A DNA stretch of 64,000 nucleotides from Idiomarina tyrosinivorans. GTDB lineage: Bacteria > Pseudomonadota > Gammaproteobacteria > Enterobacterales > Alteromonadaceae. The stretch spans positions 310,001 through 374,000 of the forward strand of contig NZ_PIQH01000001.1 of the NCBI RefSeq assembly GCF_003987475.1. The letters run 5' to 3'. Under the pieces are notes generated by a model. It made no database searches. It was not told the origin of the DNA and worked only from the letters and a program-made list of their open reading frames with translations. Made by a program: the position numbers and the translations under genes. Numbering within the stretch: the stretch's first letter is position 1; each line of letters begins with the position of its first letter. Positions 28,368 to 64,000 of the stretch are shown one piece after another.

Positions 28368-29648
28368 ATGGCTGACCGTAAAGCCACACTGCAAATTGAT
28401 GACCAGTCGATTGAATTACCAGTACTTTCTCCAACTGCCGGTAAAGACGTAATCGACGTTCGTAGCCTTGGTAAACATGGCTACTTTACCTTTGATCCAG
28501 GCTTCCTAGCCACCGGTTCATGCGAATCTAAAATTACCTTTATTGATGGCGAAAACGGTGTACTGTTACACCGCGGCTACCCTATTGGCCAATTAGCAAC
28601 AGAAGCAGACTACTTAGAAGTTTGCTACATGTTGTTGCATGGCGAAGCGCCAAATGCGGAAGAATATAAAGAATTCCGTAAGACCATCACTAAACACACC
28701 ATGGTGCACCAAGGCATCCATAATTTCTTTAATGGTTTCCGCCGCGACGCGCATCCAATGTCGATGCTGTGTGCAGTTGTGGGCGCCCTGTCATCGTTTT
28801 ATCACGATGATTTAGATATCCACGATCCTAAGCAGCGCCTGCGTAGTGCGTACCGTTTGGTAGCAAAAATGCCAACCATCGCCGCGATGGCATACAAATT
28901 CAGCAACGGCCAGCCATTCGTTTACCCACGTAACGAATTAAGCTACTCAGAGAACTTCTTAAACATGATGTTCTCAGTGCCAGCAGAAGATTACGAAGTG
29001 AATCCCGTTATCGCCAAAGCGATGGACCGTATTTTCACCTTGCATGCTGACCACGAGCAGAACGCCTCAACCTCAACCGTGCGTTTAGCCGGTTCATCAG
29101 GCGCAAACCCATACGCTTGTATCGCTGCCGGTGTCGCATCACTTTGGGGACCTGCGCACGGCGGTGCTAACGAAGCATGCTTGCGGATGCTGAAAGAAAT
29201 CGGTTCAGTAGAAAACATTCCAAAATACATCGAGAAAGCCAAAGATAAGAGCGATCCGTTCCGCCTAATGGGCTTTGGCCACCGGGTTTACAAAAACTTC
29301 GACCCACGAGCCACAGTAATGCGTGACACCTGCCACGAAGTACTGAAAGAGCTGAACATTGAAGACCCATTATTAGACGTAGCAATGGAATTAGAGCGCA
29401 TCGCGTTAGAAGACGATTACTTCGTAGAGAAGAAATTGTACCCGAATGTCGACTTCTACTCCGGCATCATTCTGAAAGCGATCGGTATTCCAACCAACAT
29501 GTTCACCGTGATTTTTGCACTATCACGCACCGTAGGCTGGGTATCACACTGGAACGAAATGATGGGCGAAGACAACCAGAAAATCGGTCGTCCACGCCAG
29601 TTGTACACCGGTTACACGCAACGCGAGTTCAAGCCAATCAAACGCTAA
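28368..29648 (+). CDS. gltA: Citrate synthase (type II)
   Basis: A 426-residue enzyme (E. coli 427). The catalytic histidines lie in [10 protein letters not shown] and [14 protein letters not shown], and the catalytic aspartate in PNVDFYSGI near residue 363. It condenses acetyl-CoA and oxaloacetate; type II enzymes are hexameric and NADH-inhibited. It is a single gene divergent from the sdh-suc operon, ended by an intrinsic terminator and then a large palindromic repeat. Confidence 0.97.
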
Positions 29649-29664
29649 CGACCGTTGCCATACC

Positions 29665-29692
29665 AAAAGCCCGCCTCACCGCGGGCTTTTTT
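29665..29692 (+). terminator. Intrinsic terminator of gltA
   Basis: AAAAGCCCGC and GCGGGCTTTT form a 10-bp stem around 6 nt and end in a run of six T, 16 bp after the gltA stop. Confidence 0.9.
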
Positions 29693-29754
29693 GTGCCTGC
29701 TGTCTTGGGGTTGGTTGCTCTCTACCTCGGCGATGAGCTTGGGCGCGTCGGCAA

Positions 29755-30059
29755 TTCTTTACCGCGGCCTTAAGCAAAGGCTCGCGGCATCGTCAGGGTT
29801 GGGGGAAGGCTCGGGGTGTGGGCGCTGGGGTGGTTAGTGCTCAGCGTCCCGTCGGTTCACGGTGTCTCCGGTAAAAAGACGCTCGAGCCATCCATGGCCG
29901 CTCAGTCTCTGGCCCTCCCTGGCCAGAGATGCTTTTTACCGGAGCCCCCGCGCCCCAACGACACGCCAATCAATATCGAGGAAAACGCGCCCACACCCCG
30001 AGCCAAATAGGTGCGGAGAAGCGATGCCGCCCACCATCGCGGAAAGCCGCAGTAAAGAA
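29755..30059 (+). repeat. A module of palindromic repeat, copy 1
   Basis: This 305-bp unit is self-complementary in nested layers. Ends: TTCTTTACCGCGGC (29755) with GCCGCAGTAAAGAA (30046-30059). Next: CGGCATCG (29785) with CGATGCCG (30022). Next: GGCTCGGGGTGTGGGCGC (29808-29825) with its exact complement at 29987-30004. Next: CTCCGGTAAAAAG (29866-29878) with CTTTTTACCGGAG (29932-29944). The apex branches into two hairpins: CTCGAGC...GCTCAG enclosing CATCCATG, and TCTCTGGCC (29906-29914) with GGCCAGAGA (29921-29929). Confidence 0.88.
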
Positions 30060-30119
30060 GTATCAGCCTTTATCAGTTAGCCGTTACCCATAAGCTTCAG
30101 ACAGCCTGCTTGGGGTTGG

Positions 30120-30429
30120 TTGTTCTCTGCCACGGCGCGCTCGGTGTTGCATCGGCATCGCTTCTCCGTAGCCCTTAGCTTGGGGTGTAGGCGCGACTCC
30201 CCCCTCCATTGAAAGCACAACGTTGGGGCGCGAAGCTGGGGAAAAAGTATCTCCGGCCATGGACGGCCGGAGACTAAGCGCCTCATGGATGAGCTTGAGC
30301 GGCTTTTTCCCCAGCTTCGTGAACCGGCGGGGTGCCGTGCAATGACCCTCTGAGCGCCTATACACCAAGCGCCCTCCAGCCCCTCACGATGCCGACCCAC
30401 CCAAGCTAAATCGCCGTGGTAGAGAACAA
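30120..30429 (-). repeat. B module of palindromic repeat, copy 1
   Basis: A 310-bp relative of A in the opposite orientation, with the same layers but different bases. Ends: TTGTTCTCTGCCACGGCG (30120-30137) with CGCCGTGGTAGAGAACAA (30412-30429). Central stem: CGAAGCTGGGGAAAAAG (30231-30247) with its exact complement (30303-30319). Apex hairpins: TCTCCGGCC (30250-30258) with GGCCGGAGA (30265-30273), and CTAAGC...GCTTGAG enclosing CTCATGGATGAG (30282-30293). Confidence 0.88.
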
Positions 30430-30504
30430 GCAACACCAATCCCTCGGCCGCAGTAAGGCATTCTTGCGACGTGGTTTGGGGCTTTTTGTTTGTGGTTTTG
30501 ACTA

Positions 30505-30529: not shown

Positions 30530-30607
30530 ATTGGGGGATTGTTGCTATGAGTCTTGTTTTGTTAATTTTAAGCTATTGAATTTATTGATTTTTAAATATC
30601 TCTTAAG

Positions 30608-30625
30608 TTGGCACAGCGACTGCAT
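30608..30625 (+). promoter_or_regulatory. Candidate sigma-54 (RpoN) promoter for the RND operon
   Basis: TTGGCACAGCGACTGCAT fits the -24/-12 consensus (TGGCAC-N5-TTGCA) with one mismatch in the -12 box. GG (30610-30611) and GC (30622-30623) are exactly 10 bases apart, as sigma-54 requires. Transcription would start near 30635, leaving a leader of about 37 nt. Confidence 0.5.
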
Positions 30626-30671
30626 TAGTGGGTCTAACGTTAATAAAAACTTTACTAAGAGGACATTCCTC

Positions 30672-31748
30672 ATGACCGTACAACCGATGACTCGCACCAT
30701 TTGTGCTGCCGCACTAGCTCTCAGTAGCTTAACCCTGTTGGGTTGCTCAAATGCTGATGCGCAAGACAAAAATGACAAAAAAGAACAGGCTGTTGTGACT
30801 ATTCCAGTAGAGGTAACCACTGCTGGTGAGGGCGCAATTACGGCTAACTATCAAACTACGGCGGTATTAGAGCCTGAATCTGAAGCGGATGTGATTAGTC
30901 GAGTGAACGGTATTGTCGAAACCTTGCGCGTTGAAGAGGGTGATTACGTTAAAAAGGGCCAAGTACTGGCTACTTTGCGTGACGAAGAATATAGGATCAA
31001 ACGCGATGAAATGGCGGCGGAATTGGCGAGTGTTAAACAAGAGCTTTCACGTCTTGAACAGATGCATAAAGAGGGCTTAGTCAGCGCCGATGCTTACGAC
31101 AAAGTGAAATACCGTTACCAAGCAACCAAAGCGCAATATGATATGGCGGCTTATCAGCACGACAATACGGTCATTCGTGCGCCAATCAGTGGCTACATTG
31201 CTGAGCGGTTCGTCAAAGTGGGTAACTTAGTTACTCAGTACGAAGAGAAAGCGCTGTTTCATATTGTTGCCCAAGAAACGTTACAAGGCATCGTTTACTT
31301 ACCTGAAAAACAACTTGCTAACGTCAAAGTGGGTCAGACTGCCCTGCTCTACACGGCGGTCAGTAACGAGCACCCGATTACGGCTAATATCGAACGGATT
31401 AGTCCAATGATCGATAGCGATACCGGGACCTTTAAGGTGGTATTGCAAGTGAATAACAGTAACGGTCAGTTAAAGGCGGGAATGTTTGCGAAAGTGCAAA
31501 TGCAATATGAAACCCACAATAACGTAGTGCTGCTACCTCGCTATGCGGTGGTCAGTGTAGACGATAAGCACAGCGTATTTCGGGTAAATAGTGAAAATAA
31601 AGCAGAGAAAGTGGACATCACTATTGGCTTTGAAAACGAGAGCTGGGTTGAAGTTCAGCAAGGCATTGCTGCCGGCGATAAAGTGGTAACCAGCGGTCAA
31701 AACCAATTGAAAGATCAAACCCAAGTTAGCGTTATTCCGAACGCCTAA
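30672..31748 (+). CDS. RND efflux periplasmic adaptor (membrane fusion) lipoprotein
   Basis: A 358-residue HlyD/AcrA-type adaptor. The lipoprotein signal ends with LTLLGC (Cys25), so it is probably lipid-anchored. The biotinyl-lipoyl half-motifs are VISRVNGIVETLRVEEGD (about 75-92) and VIRAPISGYIAERFVKVGN near residue 170, flanking a short alpha-hairpin; beta-barrel and membrane-proximal domains follow. The ATG at 30672 is chosen because it has AGAGG upstream and gives a proper signal. It is 24 bp from the first permease. It would link the permeases to an outer-membrane channel, which is not encoded here. Confidence 0.9.
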   Translation: MTVQPMTRTICAAALALSSLTLLGCSNADAQDKNDKKEQAVVTIPVEVTTAGEGAITANYQTTAVLEPESEADVISRVNGIVETLRVEEGDYVKKGQVLATLRDEEYRIKRDEMAAELASVKQELSRLEQMHKEGLVSADAYDKVKYRYQATKAQYDMAAYQHDNTVIRAPISGYIAERFVKVGNLVTQYEEKALFHIVAQETLQGIVYLPEKQLANVKVGQTALLYTAVSNEHPITANIERISPMIDSDTGTFKVVLQVNNSNGQLKAGMFAKVQMQYETHNNVVLLPRYAVVSVDDKHSVFRVNSENKAEKVDITIGFENESWVEVQQGIAAGDKVVTSGQNQLKDQTQVSVIPNA

Positions 31749-53775: not shown

Positions 53776-54921
53776 ATGACTGTTATGCGTTGTTTAACTG
53801 CGGTCGTAACCCTAAGTTTAGCCGCTCTTGTCGCGCCGCAAGCGGCAGCAAAAGACCAACAACAAGCCGTTGCCACCTTCGCCGGAGGATGTTTCTGGTG
53901 TGTTGAAGAAGGCTTCGAAGAGCTTGATGGTGTTAGCGAAGTCATTTCTGGCTACGCCGGCGGCACAGTGCCAAACCCCAGCTATGAATTAGTCTCATCG
54001 GGTACGACCAAGTATCAAGAGTCAGTTCAGGTGCATTATGACCCACAAATTGTCAGCTATGCCGCACTAGTGCAGAAGCTGTTTCGGTTAATCAATCCGA
54101 CTGACAACCAAGGCCAATTTGTTGACCGCGGCGCACAATACCGACCCTCTATTTTTTACCACAATGCCGAACAACAACAGATTGCCGAGACCATAAAAGC
54201 GGCGATGGCAAAATCTGGACGTTACGACCAGCCACTGACGCTAGAAATAAAGCCCTTTACCACCTTTTATCCAGCAGAGGATTATCACCAGAATTATTAC
54301 AGCAAGAATCCCGTTCGCTATAACCTGTATACCTTTAATTCCGGCCGTTGGGACTACATAGACGAAGTCTGGGGCGAAGATCAAGACGTTGACTACCAGC
54401 AATTTACCAATGAAAACCCATTAGGAAACAGTGCGCCAAGTAGCGGCGCAGCAGATAGCGACTTGCAAGGCAACACGTACACCAAACCTAGCGATAAAAA
54501 GATCCGCGAAATGCTGACGCCGTTGCAGTACGAAGTCACCCAAGAAGGTGAAACCGAGCGCGCTTTCAATAACCCCTACTGGGATAATGAAAAGCCAGGT
54601 ATTTATGTCGACATAGTAACCGGCGAACCGCTGTTTTCTTCAGCCGATAAATACCACTCAGGCACAGGCTGGCCAAGCTTCACCCGCCCTATCAGCGCAA
54701 ATGCGGTTGTCGAGCGTGAAGACAGCTCATGGTTCGTGACCCGTACCGAGATTCGCAGCCGCATTGGTGATTCCCACCTAGGCCACGTATTCAAAGACGG
54801 CCCTCAACCAACCGGGTTACGCTATTGCATGAACTCAGCGGCAATGAAGTTCATACCTCTCGCGCAAATGAAAGCTAAAGGCTACGGCGAGTATATCGAC
54901 CAAGTAAAACAATCCCAATAG
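53776..54921 (+). CDS. msrAB: Secreted MsrA-MsrB fusion, peptide-methionine sulfoxide reductase
   Basis: A 381-residue protein. A signal peptide ([19 protein letters not shown], cleavage near residue 25) is followed by MsrA (about 30-200) with catalytic Cys39 in GGCFWCVEE, and MsrB (about 235-375) with HSGTGWPSF and catalytic Cys351 in [11 protein letters not shown]. The two zinc CxxC pairs found in many MsrB proteins are absent, as in the zinc-free group. It repairs both S- and R-methionine sulfoxide in periplasmic proteins, needing an electron donor that is not encoded here. Confidence 0.95.
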
Positions 54922-55009
54922 CCCCCTACCGCGCCGTCGAAGAACAGCGCTAGGCTGCCAGTTCTTTACTGCGGCCGGAGGCTTGGGTTCGCGGCAGGCT
55001 TGGGATTGG

Positions 55010-55318
55010 TTGTTCTCTACCACGGCGATTTAGCTTGGGCGCGTCGGCATCGTGAGGGGCTGGAGGGCGCTTGGTGTGTAGGCGCTCAGAGGGTCATTGC
55101 ACGGCACCCCGCCGGTTCACGAAGCTGGGGAAAAAGCCGCTCGAGCTCATCCATGAGGCGCTTAGTCTCCGGCCGTCCATGGCCGGAGATACTTTTTCCC
55201 CAGCTTCGCGCCCCAACGTTGTGCATTAAATATGGGAGAAGTCGCGCCTACACCCCAAGCTTAGGGCTACGGAGAAGCGATGCCGAAGCAACACCGAGCG
55301 CGCCGTGGCAGAGAACAA
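55010..55318 (+). repeat. B module of palindromic repeat, copy 2
   Basis: A 309-bp unit. Ends: TTGTTCTCTACCACGGCG (55010-55027) with CGCCGTGGCAGAGAACAA (55301-55318). Central stem: CGAAGCTGGGGAAAAAG (55120-55136) with its complement at 55192-55208. One base differs from copies 1 and 3 in an apex hairpin (CTCGAGC rather than CTCAAGC, opposite GCTTAG), giving a G-T/G-U pair instead of a break. Confidence 0.88.
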
Positions 55319-55378
55319 CCAACCCCAAGCAGGCTGCCTGAAGCTGGTGGATAACGGCTAATAGATAAAGGCTGGTAC

Positions 55379-55682
55379 TTCTTTACTGCGGCTTTCCGCG
55401 ATGGAGGACGGCATCGCTTCTCCGCACCTATTTGGCTCGGGGTGTGGGCGCGTTTTCCTCGATATTGATTGGCGTGTCGTTGGGGCGCGGGGGCTCCGGT
55501 AAAAAGCATCTCTGGCCAGGGAGGGCCAGAGACTGAGCGGCCATGGATGGCTCGAGCGTCTTTTTACCGGAGACACCGTGAACCGGCGGGACGCTGAGCA
55601 CTCACCACCCCAGCGCCCACACCCCGAGCTTTCCCCAACCCTGACGATGCCGCGAGCCCAAGCCTAGGGCCGCAGTAAAGAA
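55379..55682 (-). repeat. A module of palindromic repeat, copy 2
   Basis: A 304-bp unit. Ends: TTCTTTACTGCGGC (55379-55392) with GCCGCAGTAAAGAA (55669-55682), a perfect 14-bp pair here. Central stem: CTCCGGTAAAAAG (55494-55506) with CTTTTTACCGGAG (55560-55572). Confidence 0.88.
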
Positions 55683-55707
55683 TTGACAGGCACATAAAGG
55701 CCCGCTG

Positions 55708-57723
55708 TTAGGCATGCCAGCCGAGTTCGTCGGCGCGTTTTTGGGCATCTGCGGGGACGTCTGTGGCAACAAAGTGGTGATGCAGTATTTGTACGCCTAA
55801 TAGGTGGTTGATCACGGCATCAAGCTGCACTCGTTCTTCTGCTGGCGTTTGTTCATCGTTATGTCGCGCGAAGGTTGCAGTAACTTCGTCGTAATCCAAT
55901 AATCCGGCTTGCTCGACGGCTTCTTTGCTAAGGAATTGGTCGGCGAGTTTTTCGACGGCTTTCCATTTTTCCGGATCGGTATGCGCTGGCGGTGCCATAA
56001 AGGCGAATTTTTCGCGTTTATAAAGGGTTTCTGGCAACAAGCCTTTCATTGCTTCGCGGAGCACGTACTTTTCTTTGTTACCCTTTATCCGCAGGTGTGG
56101 CGGCACTTTAAAGGCATACTCGGCGAGGTGGTGGTCGAGGAATGCTGGACGAGCTTCCATCGAGTTTGCCATGTCCACTCGGTCACCGCCCCAGGTTAAA
56201 ATTTGACCTTCTAACATGGTCTTAATCCAAACATATTGCGCTCGATCTAACGGATGGCGATCGCGCAGCATGGTATCATCTAGGGTATCGGCTATGGCGG
56301 CACTGGGGTCATAATCAGCGACTTTATCCCGCATACCTTGTGCCATCAGCTTTTCGGCTATTGGTGAACAGGATAACCAGGGTTGCACGCAACTGGGGGT
56401 GAAACCCATTTTCTGATTAAAGGCCTCACTGACAAACTCTTCGCGTGCCAACATCGCGCCCTTAAACAAAGCATTATTCTTCTCTAACAGCTCTTGCCAC
56501 TCTAAACGTTCGACTTCTGGCAAATGGTCTAAGCCATGCAAGAACATATCCTTACGAAACGCCGGATAACCGGCAAACAATTCGTCTGAACCTTCGCCTG
56601 TCATTACCACTTTGTAGCCGGCCTGATTCACTTGTTGGCTCATCAGATATTTAGCCACACCCAGGGTATTGTATATGGTGCGTTCGGTATGCCAGAGCGT
56701 CTTCACAAAGTGGTCATAGAGGTCATTCGCTTTCAGCCGCATGATGTGATGGTCGGCTTGGGTGGCTTCTGCCATCTCTACCGCGATAGGCGTTTCATCG
56801 TAATCATCAGAGTCAAAGCCGATGGTAAAGGCTTTCACTGAAGTTTGCGTAGACGCTGCGGCTAAGCCAAGAATGGAGCACGAATCTATACCACCAGACA
56901 AGTAGCAACCGACTGGCACATCAGCCGTCATGCGGTGTTGCACGGCTTCCAACAGTTGCGCCCTTACCCCTTCAATATAGGCTTGTTCATCCGCTTCATC
57001 ACCCGCATGCTGATGCTCCAGCGGAAAGTCCACGTCCCAATATTTATGTTCACTGATCTGCAGTTTGCCATTGACACGCTTAAGCTTCACCACATAACCG
57101 GGTTGCACTTGTTGCACGCCTTCAAACGCCGTTGAACCAGGAACCATAACCTGAATCAGTTGATGGTAGAGACCTTGTGGAGAAAACTCACGCTTTACCT
57201 CTGGGTGTGCAAATAACACTTTCAGCTCAGAACCAAACACCACGCCATTAGCGGTCTCAGTCCAATATAACGGTTTAATACCAAAGCGATCTCGCACTAA
57301 ATAAAGGCTATCCTCTTTTTCGTCGTATAACGAAAAAGCGAATTCACCGCGCAGCGACTTTAGGGTGGTATCTAACCCATAGCGCTCATATAAGTGCAGT
57401 ACAATTTCGGAATCACTTTTGGTACGAAAGCGGGCTCCACGGGCAGTCAGGTCAGCTCTAATCCGCTTAAAATCATAGAATTCACCGTTGTGAGCTAACA
57501 TTAGACGTTGGTCGGCAGACAAAAACGGCTGTCTAGCGCGGTTTTCATCTAAGTCGATAATAGATAAGCGCGCGTGGCTAAAGCCTACGCCTCGAGCATC
57601 CTTTATTTGATAGCCAAAACCATCGGGACCTCGATGGTGCATGATGGCCGCCATATTCACTAAGGTTTGCGCATCAATCGCTTGTTCGGACTGATGATGA
57701 AAAACTCCAGCAATTCCGCACAT
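55708..57723 (-). CDS. asnB: AsnB-type glutamine-hydrolysing asparagine synthetase family protein
   Basis: A 671-residue protein. The N-terminal class II glutaminase starts with MCGIAGVFHH (Cys2 nucleophile) and has HHRGPDGFG near residue 32. The synthetase domain has the PP-loop CYLSGGIDSCSILG near residue 260 and MTGEGSDELFAGYP near residue 370. It is about 115 residues longer than E. coli AsnB (554), similar to the longer AsnO/AsnB-2 forms, so the acceptor may be aspartate or another carboxylate. It is last in a five-gene minus-strand cluster, 18 bp after the transcarbamylase. Confidence 0.88.
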   Translation of the reverse strand: MCGIAGVFHHQSEQAIDAQTLVNMAAIMHHRGPDGFGYQIKDARGVGFSHARLSIIDLDENRARQPFLSADQRLMLAHNGEFYDFKRIRADLTARGARFRTKSDSEIVLHLYERYGLDTTLKSLRGEFAFSLYDEKEDSLYLVRDRFGIKPLYWTETANGVVFGSELKVLFAHPEVKREFSPQGLYHQLIQVMVPGSTAFEGVQQVQPGYVVKLKRVNGKLQISEHKYWDVDFPLEHQHAGDEADEQAYIEGVRAQLLEAVQHRMTADVPVGCYLSGGIDSCSILGLAAASTQTSVKAFTIGFDSDDYDETPIAVEMAEATQADHHIMRLKANDLYDHFVKTLWHTERTIYNTLGVAKYLMSQQVNQAGYKVVMTGEGSDELFAGYPAFRKDMFLHGLDHLPEVERLEWQELLEKNNALFKGAMLAREEFVSEAFNQKMGFTPSCVQPWLSCSPIAEKLMAQGMRDKVADYDPSAAIADTLDDTMLRDRHPLDRAQYVWIKTMLEGQILTWGGDRVDMANSMEARPAFLDHHLAEYAFKVPPHLRIKGNKEKYVLREAMKGLLPETLYKREKFAFMAPPAHTDPEKWKAVEKLADQFLSKEAVEQAGLLDYDEVTATFARHNDEQTPAEERVQLDAVINHLLGVQILHHHFVATDVPADAQKRADELGWHA

Positions 57724-61158: not shown

Positions 61159-61548
61159 ATGCGGTACTTATGTAGCCTAGGCTCAAATATTCAACCAGAA
61201 AAGCACTTCCGGGAAGTGAAACAGCGGCTGGCAAGCTTGAGTAGCAGCATTCGTTACTCGCGGGCCATTCAAACCCAACCGGTAGATATTGATACCTCGA
61301 AACAGTTTCTGAATGCGCTATTTATTATTGAAAGCGCCCTACCAGAAGCCGCATTGAAGCAAAGTTTTAACCAAATTGAGATACTAATGGGTCGCGACCG
61401 CAGTGACCCACTGTCTAGCCAAAAAGACCGTCCCATTGATATCGATATACTCGGAATTATTACGTCAGAAGCCGCCTTTCCCGACGTTCCTGACTATTTG
61501 CATTCATTAACCGCAGATCTAATGCCACCGCAAGGAGTGACTTCATGA
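61159..61548 (+). CDS. HPPK-like (FolK family) protein, short form
   Basis: A 129-residue protein, shorter than typical FolK (about 160). It starts MRYLCSLGSNIQPEKHF, the usual LGSN opening, and carries GRDRSDPLSSQ followed by DRPIDIDIL, the 6-hydroxymethyl-7,8-dihydropterin pyrophosphokinase signature with its two Mg-binding aspartates. The ATG at 61159 is preferred over a TTG at 61147. It overlaps folM by 4 bp, so it probably handles the same pterins. Whether it is a second HPPK or has changed activity cannot be told without finding the main folK. Confidence 0.78.
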   Translation: MRYLCSLGSNIQPEKHFREVKQRLASLSSSIRYSRAIQTQPVDIDTSKQFLNALFIIESALPEAALKQSFNQIEILMGRDRSDPLSSQKDRPIDIDILGIITSEAAFPDVPDYLHSLTADLMPPQGVTS

Positions 61549-62252
61549 GCCGTACAGCGCTGATTACCGGAGCAGGACGCCGTTTCGGCTATGAGCTTGC
61601 TCATGCCTTACTCGATGAAGGCTATACCGTTTACGCGCATTACAACACCTCAAAAGGCGGTGTCGAAGAATTAGAAAAGCGCGGCGCAATCCCTATTCAA
61701 GCAGACTTTTCCAACAACGCAGAAATAGCCGCAATGGTGAAGCAACTGCAACAGTCCATTGAAAGCCTTGATATATTGGTCAATAACGCCTCCTGCTTCT
61801 TTAATAATGACACTATCGATGACGATGACGACAAATTAGATGCCGTTTACCAAGTACATGCAATCGCCCCATACCGACTGATTACCGGCCTACAATTGGC
61901 CTTGGCAGCCGCAGAAGACGGTTTAGTAATAAACATCACTGATATCTATGTAGAAAGACCATCAGTAGACTACATCGCCTACTGCAGTGCTAAAGCCGCA
62001 TTAGCCAACATGACGCTATCGTTCGCCAAAGTATTAGCGCCTGAGATCCGCGTGAATGCGATCCAACCAGGCCCCATACTGTTTCTCCCCGAACACCAAG
62101 ACGAATATCGCCGCAGCGTGCTAAGCGAAACACCACTAACCGTCGAAGGCGGGCTAGAGCCCATGATCGAAACCGTAAAGTTCTTCCGCGATAACCGCTT
62201 TCTGACCGGCGAATCGATCAAAGTAGACGGCGGCCGAGCCCTCAAAATCTAG
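61545..62252 (+). CDS. folM: FolM-type dihydromonapterin/dihydrofolate reductase (SDR)
   Basis: A 235-residue short-chain dehydrogenase. The N-terminal TGAGRRFG (8-15) is the TGxxxRxG variant that marks pteridine reductases instead of the usual TGxxxGxG. The NNAS motif lies near residue 84 and the catalytic pair is YCSAK near residue 146. FolM reduces dihydromonapterin to tetrahydromonapterin with NADPH and weakly reduces dihydrofolate. It is coupled to the HPPK-like gene by an ATGA overlap. Confidence 0.88.
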   Translation: MSRTALITGAGRRFGYELAHALLDEGYTVYAHYNTSKGGVEELEKRGAIPIQADFSNNAEIAAMVKQLQQSIESLDILVNNASCFFNNDTIDDDDDKLDAVYQVHAIAPYRLITGLQLALAAAEDGLVINITDIYVERPSVDYIAYCSAKAALANMTLSFAKVLAPEIRVNAIQPGPILFLPEHQDEYRRSVLSETPLTVEGGLEPMIETVKFFRDNRFLTGESIKVDGGRALKI

Positions 62253-62327
62253 CCCACAATCGGCTTGAGATTGGTTGTTCTCTACCACGGCGTCTAGCTC
62301 CGGCGCGTCGGCATCGTGAGGGGTCAA

Positions 62328-62632
62328 TTCTTTACCGCGGCCTTAGGCAAAGGCTCGCGGCATCGTTAGGGTTGGGGGAAGGCTCGGGGTGTGGACGCTG
62401 GGGTGGTGAGTGCTCAGCGTCCCGTCGGTTCACGGTGTCTCCGGTAAAAAGACGCTCGAGCCATCCATGGCCGCTCAGTCTCTGGCCCTCCCTGGCCAGA
62501 GATGCTTTTTACCGGAGCCCCCGCGCCCCAACGACACGCCCATCAATATCGAGGAAAACGCGCCCACACCCCGAGCCAAATAGGTGCGGAGAAGCGATGC
62601 CGCCCACCATCGCGGAAAGCCGCAGTAAAGAA
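62328..62632 (+). repeat. A module of palindromic repeat, copy 3
   Basis: A 305-bp unit nearly identical to copy 1. Ends: TTCTTTACCGCGGC (62328) with GCCGCAGTAAAGAA (62619-62632). Central stem: CTCCGGTAAAAAG (62439-62451) with CTTTTTACCGGAG (62505-62517). Confidence 0.88.
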
Positions 62633-62692
62633 GTACCAGCCTTTATCTATTAGCCGTTATCCACTAGCTTCGGACAGTCTGCTTGGGGTTGG

Positions 62693-63000
62693 TTGTTCTC
62701 TATCACGGCGCGCTCGGTGTTGCATCGGCATCGCTTCTCCGTAGCCCTTAGCTTGGGGTGTAGGCGCGACTTCTCCCACATTTAACGCACAACGTTGGGG
62801 CGCGAAGCTGGGGAAAAAGTATCTCCGGCCATGGACGGCCGGAGACTAAGCGCCTCATGGATGAGCTTGAGCGGCTTTTTCCCCAGCTTCGTGAACCGGC
62901 GGGGTGCCGTGCAATGACCCTCTGAGCGCCTACACACCAAGCGCCCTCCAGCCCCTCACGATGCCGACGCGCCCAAGCTAATCGCCGTGGTAGAGAACAA
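62693..63000 (-). repeat. B module of palindromic repeat, copy 3
   Basis: A 308-bp unit. Ends: TTGTTCTCTATCACGGCG (62693-62710) with CGCCGTGGTAGAGAACAA (62983-63000). Central stem: CGAAGCTGGGGAAAAAG (62803-62819) with its complement (62875-62891). Confidence 0.88.
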
Positions 63001-63093
63001 GCAATCCCGAGCCTCCCCCCCAACCCTGACGATGCCGCGAGCCAGACCATAAGCCGCAGTAAAGAACTGGCAACATCAAAGCCAGCAGACACA

Positions 63094-63120
63094 AAAAAGC
63101 CCGCGGTGAAGCGGGCTTTT
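63094..63120. terminator. Bidirectional intrinsic terminator downstream of acnA
   Basis: AAAAGCCCGC and GCGGGCTTTT pair around 6 nt, with A- and T-runs on both flanks. It ends acnA on the minus strand (16 bp after its stop) and could also stop read-through from folM and the repeat. Confidence 0.88.
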
Positions 63121-63135: not shown

Positions 63136-64000
63136 TTAGGCTGCCAGCATTTGGCGCAGTACGTAATGCAAGATGCCGCCGTTGCGGTAGTACTGCATTT
63201 CGTTACCGGTATCGATGCGGCATTTCACATCGAATTCAACGGTTTCGCCGTCGGCTTTTTTGGCTTCGACTTTCAGCGTTTGTCCCGGTTTAAGGTCTTC
63301 ATTGATACCTTTAATCGAGATTTCTTCGTCGCCCGTTAAGCCATGTGCTTCAACGCCTTGGCCGTCAGCAAATTGTAGCGGTAGTACACCCATGCCAACT
63401 AAATTGGAACGGTGAATACGTTCGAAACTTTCGGCAATAACCGCTTTCACGCCCAACAAGGTTGTGCCTTTGGCGGCCCAGTCGCGGCTTGAGCCTGTAC
63501 CGTATTCTTTACCGGCTAGAACGACTAGCGGCGTTCCGTTTTCGATATACTTCATTGCCGCATCGTAAATCGCCATTTGTTCGCCCGATGGAATATATTT
63601 GGTGTAACCCCCTTCTACATCATCAAGCATCTGGTTTTTGATACGAATGTTGGCAAAGGTTCCGCGCATCATGACTTCATGGTTACCACGGCGTGAGCCA
63701 TAGGAGTTGAAGTCTTTAACGGCAACACCATTTTCTTGCAGGTATTTACCCGCTGGCGAATCGGGTTTAATTGAACCCGCTGGTGAAATATGGTCGGTGG
63801 TGATTGAGTCACCGAACACTGCCAGTACCCGCGCGTCTTTGATGTCACTTGGCGCTGCCAACGGCTTATCAATACCTTCAAAGAATGGTGGATTCTTCAC
63901 ATAGGTAGAATCGTCCTGCCAATCGTAGGTGTTGCCTTCAGCAACTTTGATGGCACGCCATTCTTCATCACCTTTAAAGACTTCACCATATTCTTTGCGG
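63136..64000 (-). CDS. acnA: Aconitate hydratase AcnA, C-terminal part (5' truncated by window edge)
   Basis: The frame is open to base 64000, giving the last 288 residues; the iron-sulfur domains lie outside the window. The visible part is the C-terminal swivel domain: [48 protein letters not shown], and [13 protein letters not shown], which carries active-site serine/arginine residues. These match the AcnA/IRP1 type rather than AcnB. It isomerises citrate to isocitrate in the TCA cycle. It ends at a bidirectional terminator next to repeat copy 3. Confidence 0.95.

Follow-up and report, generated by a model that had tools for sequence, protein, structure and literature searches.

The repeat found in the window (the whole 64,000-nucleotide stretch of Idiomarina tyrosinivorans DNA analysed here) is a dispersed composite of two Y-shaped modules, A and B, which resemble the TwoAYGGAY RNA motif (RF01731) and are joined tail to tail. 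These composites are larger and more widespread than we found described in the literature searched (open-licence PMC papers). We tentatively read them as REPIN-like dispersed dimers with a GGA-displaying head, forming an RNA element that CsrA could bind. A motif treated in the literature as an RNA family of unknown function is thus a multicopy dispersed repeat in many Gammaproteobacteria.

Architecture, copies and neighbours of the composite

An earlier note, made from the sequence alone, had described three copies of a large palindromic repeat in the window. All three are real (Table 1; the limits of copies 2 and 3 are approximate): core blocks common to them are 95–96% identical and inverted self-matches within copies are ∼72–80% identical (BLAST against the window). 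The inverted A/B plan and the size of A stand, whereas B is a little longer than had been claimed and the spacer measures ∼51 bp. In copy 1, the reverse complement of A is 78% identical to B over 287 positions. In the predicted folds, A and B each form one long self-paired arm with layered stems and a forked tip with two hairpins (−173.4 kcal/mol, z −9.1 for A; −179.8 kcal/mol, z −9.8 for B; against 60 dinucleotide shuffles each), which bears out the end-to-end self-complementarity noted before.

Table 1. Features of the composite copies and their surroundings in the window (R1 is the module model described in the text).
Feature	Position	Strand	Basis or remark
Citrate synthase gene, presumably gltA (named from its protein sequence), left neighbour of copy 1	28368..29648	+	Matches in 19/19 genomes
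Intrinsic-terminator-like hairpin behind gltA, adjoining copy 1	29665..29699	+	Sequence
Composite copy 1 (A, spacer, B, with a B-type end at left)	29706..30458	.	Genome search and alignment
A module, copy 1	29749..30056 (308 bp)	-	GGA loops on minus strand; fold; R1 match L001:1631-1772 (-), 37 bits
Y head of A	29866..29944	-	Stem CTCCGGTAAAAAG/CTTTTTACCGGAG around two hairpins; minus-strand loops AGGGAG, ATGGAT; sequence and fold
Spacer A/B, copy 1	30057..30107 (∼51 bp)	.	Sequence and alignment
B module, copy 1	30108..30440 (333 bp)	+	GGA loops on plus strand; fold; R1 match L001:1997-2139 (+), 56 bits; RF01731 30.0 bits
B hairpin 1, loop ATGGAC	30250..30273	+	Sequence and RF01731 alignment
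B hairpin 2, loop ATGGAT	30282..30293	+	Sequence and RF01731 alignment
RND efflux adaptor gene, right neighbour of copy 1, codirectional with gltA	30531..31748	+	
Methionine sulfoxide reductase gene (PMSR + SelR), left neighbour of copy 2	53776..54921	+	
Composite copy 2, in reverse orientation to copy 1 (B at left, A at right)	54961..55685	.	Sequence, genome search, BLAST
Asparagine synthase gene, right neighbour of copy 2, convergent	55708..57723	-	
Short-chain dehydrogenase gene, left neighbour of copy 3	61545..62252	+	
Composite copy 3, orientation as copy 1	62262..63070	.	Sequence, genome search, BLAST
Aconitase gene, C-terminal part, right neighbour of copy 3, convergent	63136..63900	-	

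The Y heads are nearly invariant across the aligned copies of this genome; that of A is identical in 11 of 12 aligned A modules, the exception (L051) differing at two positions. The outer ends of the composite are a mosaic, with an extra B-type end before A in some copies and an extra A-type end after B in others. In most copies the outer ends are nearly complementary (TTCTTTACTGCGGC with GCCGCAGTAAAGAA), and no target-site duplication was recognised by eye in the copy alignment. At Rfam's own cut-offs, no match occurs anywhere in the window. A protein-coding element was also considered and rejected, as the three internal ORFs (113–120 aa) match no Pfam family.

The 2.43-Mb genome contains (i) 12 full copies in both orientations, the other 11 being 90–95% identical to copy 1; (ii) one further copy (L014) in which an internal deletion removed the A head, leaving an A-type end and B; and (iii) four pieces truncated where a contig starts, of which two contain A and two contain B. 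The total is therefore at least 15, with at most 17 seen. The earlier expectation of many copies per genome was right, while the density of three per 64 kb reflects a local cluster and not the genome average. The A modules of this genome are 94% identical on average. Such composites break assemblies, as the four contig starts illustrate. Another repeat probably breaks the assembly at the ends of contigs G000:C17 (L306:230-382) and G000:C19 (L010:2286-2438), which share the same sequence (97% over 155 positions).

The whole copy-1 sequence was not found in 18 congeners; only 46-bp head matches occur in two of them (G001 and G012), and these are small Y elements with unrelated but self-complementary arms. 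The idea that the giant composite is specific to this species is thus half right: apart from the head matches its sequence was not found in the 18 congeners, whereas its architecture recurs across the genus. An initial pattern written for the composite had no match in the genome-contig collection, from which records of this genome may be left out. We rejected a phage or plasmid origin: searching the phage and plasmid collections with copy 1 gave no match, and viral contigs contain neither the giant pattern nor the small-element pattern.

As stated in the earlier note, all three window copies lie 3′ of genes and two of them (copies 2 and 3) in convergent gaps. A near-identical terminator-like sequence, ending GTGCCTG, adjoins all three (29681–29699, 55687–55705 and 63086–63104). 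Genome-wide, the terminator GCGGGCTTTTTTGTGCCTG has 16 sites at ≤2 mismatches, 13 of which adjoin a composite (five on its A side, eight on its B side); the other three have no composite in the flanking sequence read, and one of these lies 135 bases from a contig end. We rejected the terminator as a fixed part of the unit; it may be a landing place for the composite or a co-dispersed neighbour. In 13 of 17 copies or pieces it lies between one neighbour gene and the composite, so that this gene would rarely transcribe the composite. A regulon of carbon genes was rejected, because the named neighbours are mixed housekeeping genes (6 of 17 proteins in two neighbour sets have no family).

Relation to TwoAYGGAY and a genus-wide family

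At the Y heads of A and B in copy 1, no bacterial RNA family other than RF01731 was matched. Its matches were obtained at permissive thresholds (30.0 bits for B and 24.1 bits for A; gathering cut-off 43 bits). None of the 19 Idiomarina genomes has a match over the cut-off; sub-threshold matches occur in 14, and the 26 in this genome all fall within composite copies. The AYGGAY loop pair is present on one strand in B (ATGGAC and ATGGAT), and A has ATGGAT and AGGGAG. TwoAYGGAY was listed as an RNA family in 2010 (PMC2864571), and a 2014 paper proposes that it is bound by CsrA (PMC4333381). The heads of A and B share with it a stem and two hairpins with GGA loops. The modules differ from it in that they score below the cut-off, one A loop is AGGGAG and the arms are far longer; moreover, the inverted composite and the genome-wide dispersal are not mentioned for TwoAYGGAY in the available parts of these two papers. 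The earlier remark that no such family had been described therefore needs qualification: the head matches a known motif, below its cut-off, but the inverted composite itself was not found described in a literature search of open-licence PMC papers.

We built a module model, R1, from an alignment of 29 small congener elements, i.e. 27 of 28 loci taken from the RF01731 matches and the two loci with 46-bp matches (G001 and G012). Its structure was set by extending the predicted one, and it contains no sequence of this genome. In the congener alignment, 91.2% of cells pair, both-sided change occurs in 25 of 33 pairs, and covariation is 0.534, compared to 0.168 when shuffled and at most 0.171 when slid. 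R1 finds B in all 15 copies or pieces holding one (51.9–56.1 bits) and A in all 14 holding one (23.9–38.9 bits). Because R1 was built without this genome, these matches are an independent test of membership in the genus family.

The search of related genomes that the earlier note had advised yielded a family: R1 finds at least 289 modules (best 150 candidates scored), spread over 14 of the 19 Idiomarina genomes and including 28 in this one, and no module match in the other five species. Seven congener modules taken as examples fold into the same long paired arms. From 261 congener matches, 87 distinct modules were examined, best-scoring first, and 85 of these have two or more closed ANGGAN loops, although R1 already favours GGA.

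Distribution, pair polarity and gene context

In a sample of the class, module matches are present in at least 65 of 369 gammaproteobacterial genomes (this genome included) and 58 of 272 genera (E up to 1e-4), a lower bound because the best 8 candidates per genome were scored. Among the matches listed, the carriers are mostly Marinobacter, but also Idiomarina, Vreelandella, Stenotrophomonas, Sedimenticola, Halospina, Aquisalimonas and a Desulfuromonadales assembly; the pattern used for other genera requires both GGA hairpins, and its figures cover the matches listed. Of 20 class-level loci read directly, 17 have two or more closed ANGGAN loops; CRAGC separates the hairpins in 19, TTCAC follows them in 14 and GTGT precedes them in nine, and the arms differ by place.

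Many modules are single. Where two lie <300 bp apart, the GGA strand is always minus at the left and plus at the right. This holds for 24 of 24 Idiomarina pairs (11 species; orthologous places counted separately) and, among the matches listed, for 14 of 14 pairs elsewhere (13 in Marinobacter and one in another gammaproteobacterium). A further set gave 7 of 7; one repeats an Idiomarina place, which leaves 6 of 6 new pairs, two of them in other genera of the class sample. The opposite order appears only in this further set, at spacings of 559 and 807 bp. The tail-to-tail layout is shared by Idiomarina, Marinobacter and three loci of other Gammaproteobacteria. In Idiomarina and Marinobacter, the motif often forms inverted pairs of fixed polarity with arms that vary by place yet stay paired.

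Gene context was called with a simple ORF caller of our own, leaving out 13 of 163 distinct elements at locus edges. Of the 10 composites of this genome for which both neighbour genes were called, nine lie in convergent gaps, as do 16 of 24 pairs and 21 of 35 singles in Idiomarina and, among the matches listed for other genera, 10 of 14 pairs and 27 of 75 singles, compared to 77 of 433 control neighbours, which come from loci of the other-genera pattern and are mostly from Marinobacter. Divergent gaps hold 7 of 158 elements, none of them in Idiomarina, compared to 97 of 433 control neighbours. The window has 54 neighbour pairs, of which nine are convergent, including two composite gaps. Single modules in codirectional gaps show no strand preference: in 25 of 55, the sense strand carries GGA.

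Evolution of the modules and competing explanations

For 69 congener modules with a flank match in another species, the nearest relative lies at the same junction in 53 cases, in the own genome in four and at another place in 12. This suggests that most congener modules were inherited in place. The junctions shared with this genome include the acnB junction and the dehydrogenase–aconitase junction of copy 3; yet the A copies here are 94% alike, which suggests that this lineage recently homogenised or re-inserted its copies. Of 18 congeners, one (G006) has an R1 match at the gltA junction. In G004, a Y element that is full in G006 is present after gltA (L112) but, judged by eye, is truncated inside the first hairpin; the other 16 congeners have no R1 match at this locus.

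Constraint on pairing is evident for the family rather than for the recent copies of this genome. In 23 non-overlapping orthologue pairs (1243 cells), 22 double changes at paired sites keep pairing and one breaks it, compared to 8 kept and 13 broken in 3026 cells for six slid controls summed; single pair-breaking changes are not rare (41 of the 1243 cells). Between A and B, six double changes are kept and two broken; among the A copies of this genome, none is kept and one is broken. Between modules within a congener genome, mean identity over 356 pairs is 76% in the core and 41% in the arms; 97% of arm pairs are standard in congener modules, in an alignment that had been fitted to the structure.

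The composites share features with several known systems. REP dimers consist of two inverted hairpins and a spacer, occur in many copies at gene 3′ ends and are commonly heterodimers (PMC3116915 and PMC3733652). Inverted dimers with a spacer, high copy number and location at gene 3′ ends are common to the composites, as the earlier note had recognised in calling the plan REPIN-like with modules far larger than a REP. Compared to the REPs of the GTAG and CGTC families, with hairpins of 20–40 bp, the composites have modules of 308 and 333 bp, a Y-shaped head and no Y1_Tnp association. Like MITEs, they are short, multicopy and without recognised coding capacity, with near-complementary ends; unlike MITEs, they are almost wholly palindromic, with no target duplication recognised and no partner transposase found. 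Csr/Rsm RNAs (of the RsmY/RsmZ and CsrB type) also carry ANGGA in hairpin loops, and CsrA is encoded in all 19 Idiomarina genomes (G000:C21:55609-55764 in this one). In contrast to these RNAs, the modules are many and dispersed, lie often in convergent gaps, and usually have two such loops and long paired arms.

It is possible, if rather doubtful, that the composite is mobile DNA only, i.e. a REPIN-like, non-autonomous element that moves as an inverted pair, with its Y head recognised as single-stranded DNA by a putative transposase or nuclease, and with no RNA role. This would account for the dispersed multicopy pairs of fixed polarity, the near-complementary outer ends in most copies, the 94% identity of the A modules here, the presence or absence at the gltA gap, the copies on either side of one terminator sequence, the single modules without strand preference towards genes and the 3′ and convergent location, which is typical of REPs (PMC3733652). 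It fits less well with the long residence seen in 53 of 69 nearest relatives, with arms so much less alike than cores within congener genomes, unlike freshly copied units, with the absence of copy-1 matches from the phage and plasmid collections, and with the search for a partner enzyme and for target-site duplications (the latter by eye), which recognised neither. The earlier note had suggested a RAYT as such a partner, and here it did not hold up. The one Y1_Tnp gene of this genome (186 aa, L127:2378-2938 on G000:C17) sits among many short REPs (CCTGCCGCAATAGCGGCAGGCTAC and similar); in our reading, it looks like a RAYT with a separate, ordinary REP system. Among the 19 genomes, seven have both Y1_Tnp and modules, four Y1_Tnp only, seven modules only and one neither; PF01797 includes RAYTs as well as other Y1 transposases, and the gene of this genome is the one inspected closely. 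None of nine Y1_Tnp loci scanned has a pair of closed ANGGAN hairpins, and two have a single one. RAYT mobilisation as the current driver was therefore rejected, since the gene of this genome lies among other REPs and Y1_Tnp, present in 11 of 19 genomes, is unlinked to modules.

Two further readings concern the palindrome itself. BIMEs are proposed to act via binding of gyrase or nucleoid proteins, and the composites could similarly extrude, or bind such proteins, between convergent genes, the head sequence being the site of that protein. Their bias to convergent and away from divergent gaps and the very stable long palindromes are consistent with this role in DNA architecture, but a double-stranded site would not need the strand-specific GGA loop kept in both hairpins, and five Idiomarina species have no module match; we consider it very unlikely. 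Quasi-palindrome correction is a template switching that restores pairing, and neutral palindromes kept paired by such switching at replication, with no selected function, would likewise yield double changes that keep pairing, with arm sequences that drift freely. By itself, however, template switching does not explain why the head, the loops and the pair polarity are conserved across genera, and we hold this reading to be quite improbable.

The reading we tentatively prefer is that of an RNA element that CsrA could bind. CsrA-type proteins bind ANGGA loops on rigid stems. On read-through of a neighbouring gene, the composite would act as a structured RNA element: for transcription from either side, the first module would form a plain long hairpin and the second would show two ANGGA loops on a rigid stem, the form bound by these proteins. 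The inverted pair would be the unit of recent copying or homogenisation in this genome, with modules of other Idiomarina species mostly staying in place for long times. Several observations argue for this RNA reading: (i) strand-specific GGA loops in 85 of 87 modules, found with a model that favours GGA; (ii) the fixed polarity, by which transcripts from both sides would carry one GGA head each; (iii) the kept double changes (22 against 1 broken) and covariation (0.534 against 0.168); (iv) at least 15 copies, the R1 matches to A and B, the convergent-gap bias and CsrA in 19 of 19 genomes; and (v) the published proposal of CsrA binding by TwoAYGGAY (PMC4333381).

Other observations argue against the RNA reading. 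Five CsrA-bearing Idiomarina species have no module match, the terminator shields one neighbour in 13 of 17 copies or pieces, and no kept double change occurs among the A copies of this genome. Part of the head outside the loops is conserved as well (CRAGC in 19 of 20 class-level loci), which exceeds what CsrA is known to need. In the class sample, CsrA matches occur in 60 of the 65 genomes with modules and in 253 of the 304 without, which is a weak difference (p 0.08); the five module-bearing genomes with no CsrA match count against the reading, and four of them are <90% complete and one is 98% complete. A simple 3′-UTR sponge is disfavoured because single modules lack strand preference (25 of 55 with sense-strand GGA). 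It seems unlikely, on balance, that the composites form a distributed CsrA buffer, in which many tail-to-tail palindromes per genome, placed across Gammaproteobacteria in 3′ gaps that convergent genes share, would offer a GGA head to read-through from either side, and their summed read-through would set free CsrA. The composites offer a testable link between mobile DNA of the REP type and decoys for RNA-binding proteins.

Y modules also cluster along the genomes of some congeners, at ∼511–561 kb of G016:C1, ∼202–252 kb of G002:C17 and ∼485–510 kb of G005:C1, and an integron array was considered because of this clustering.
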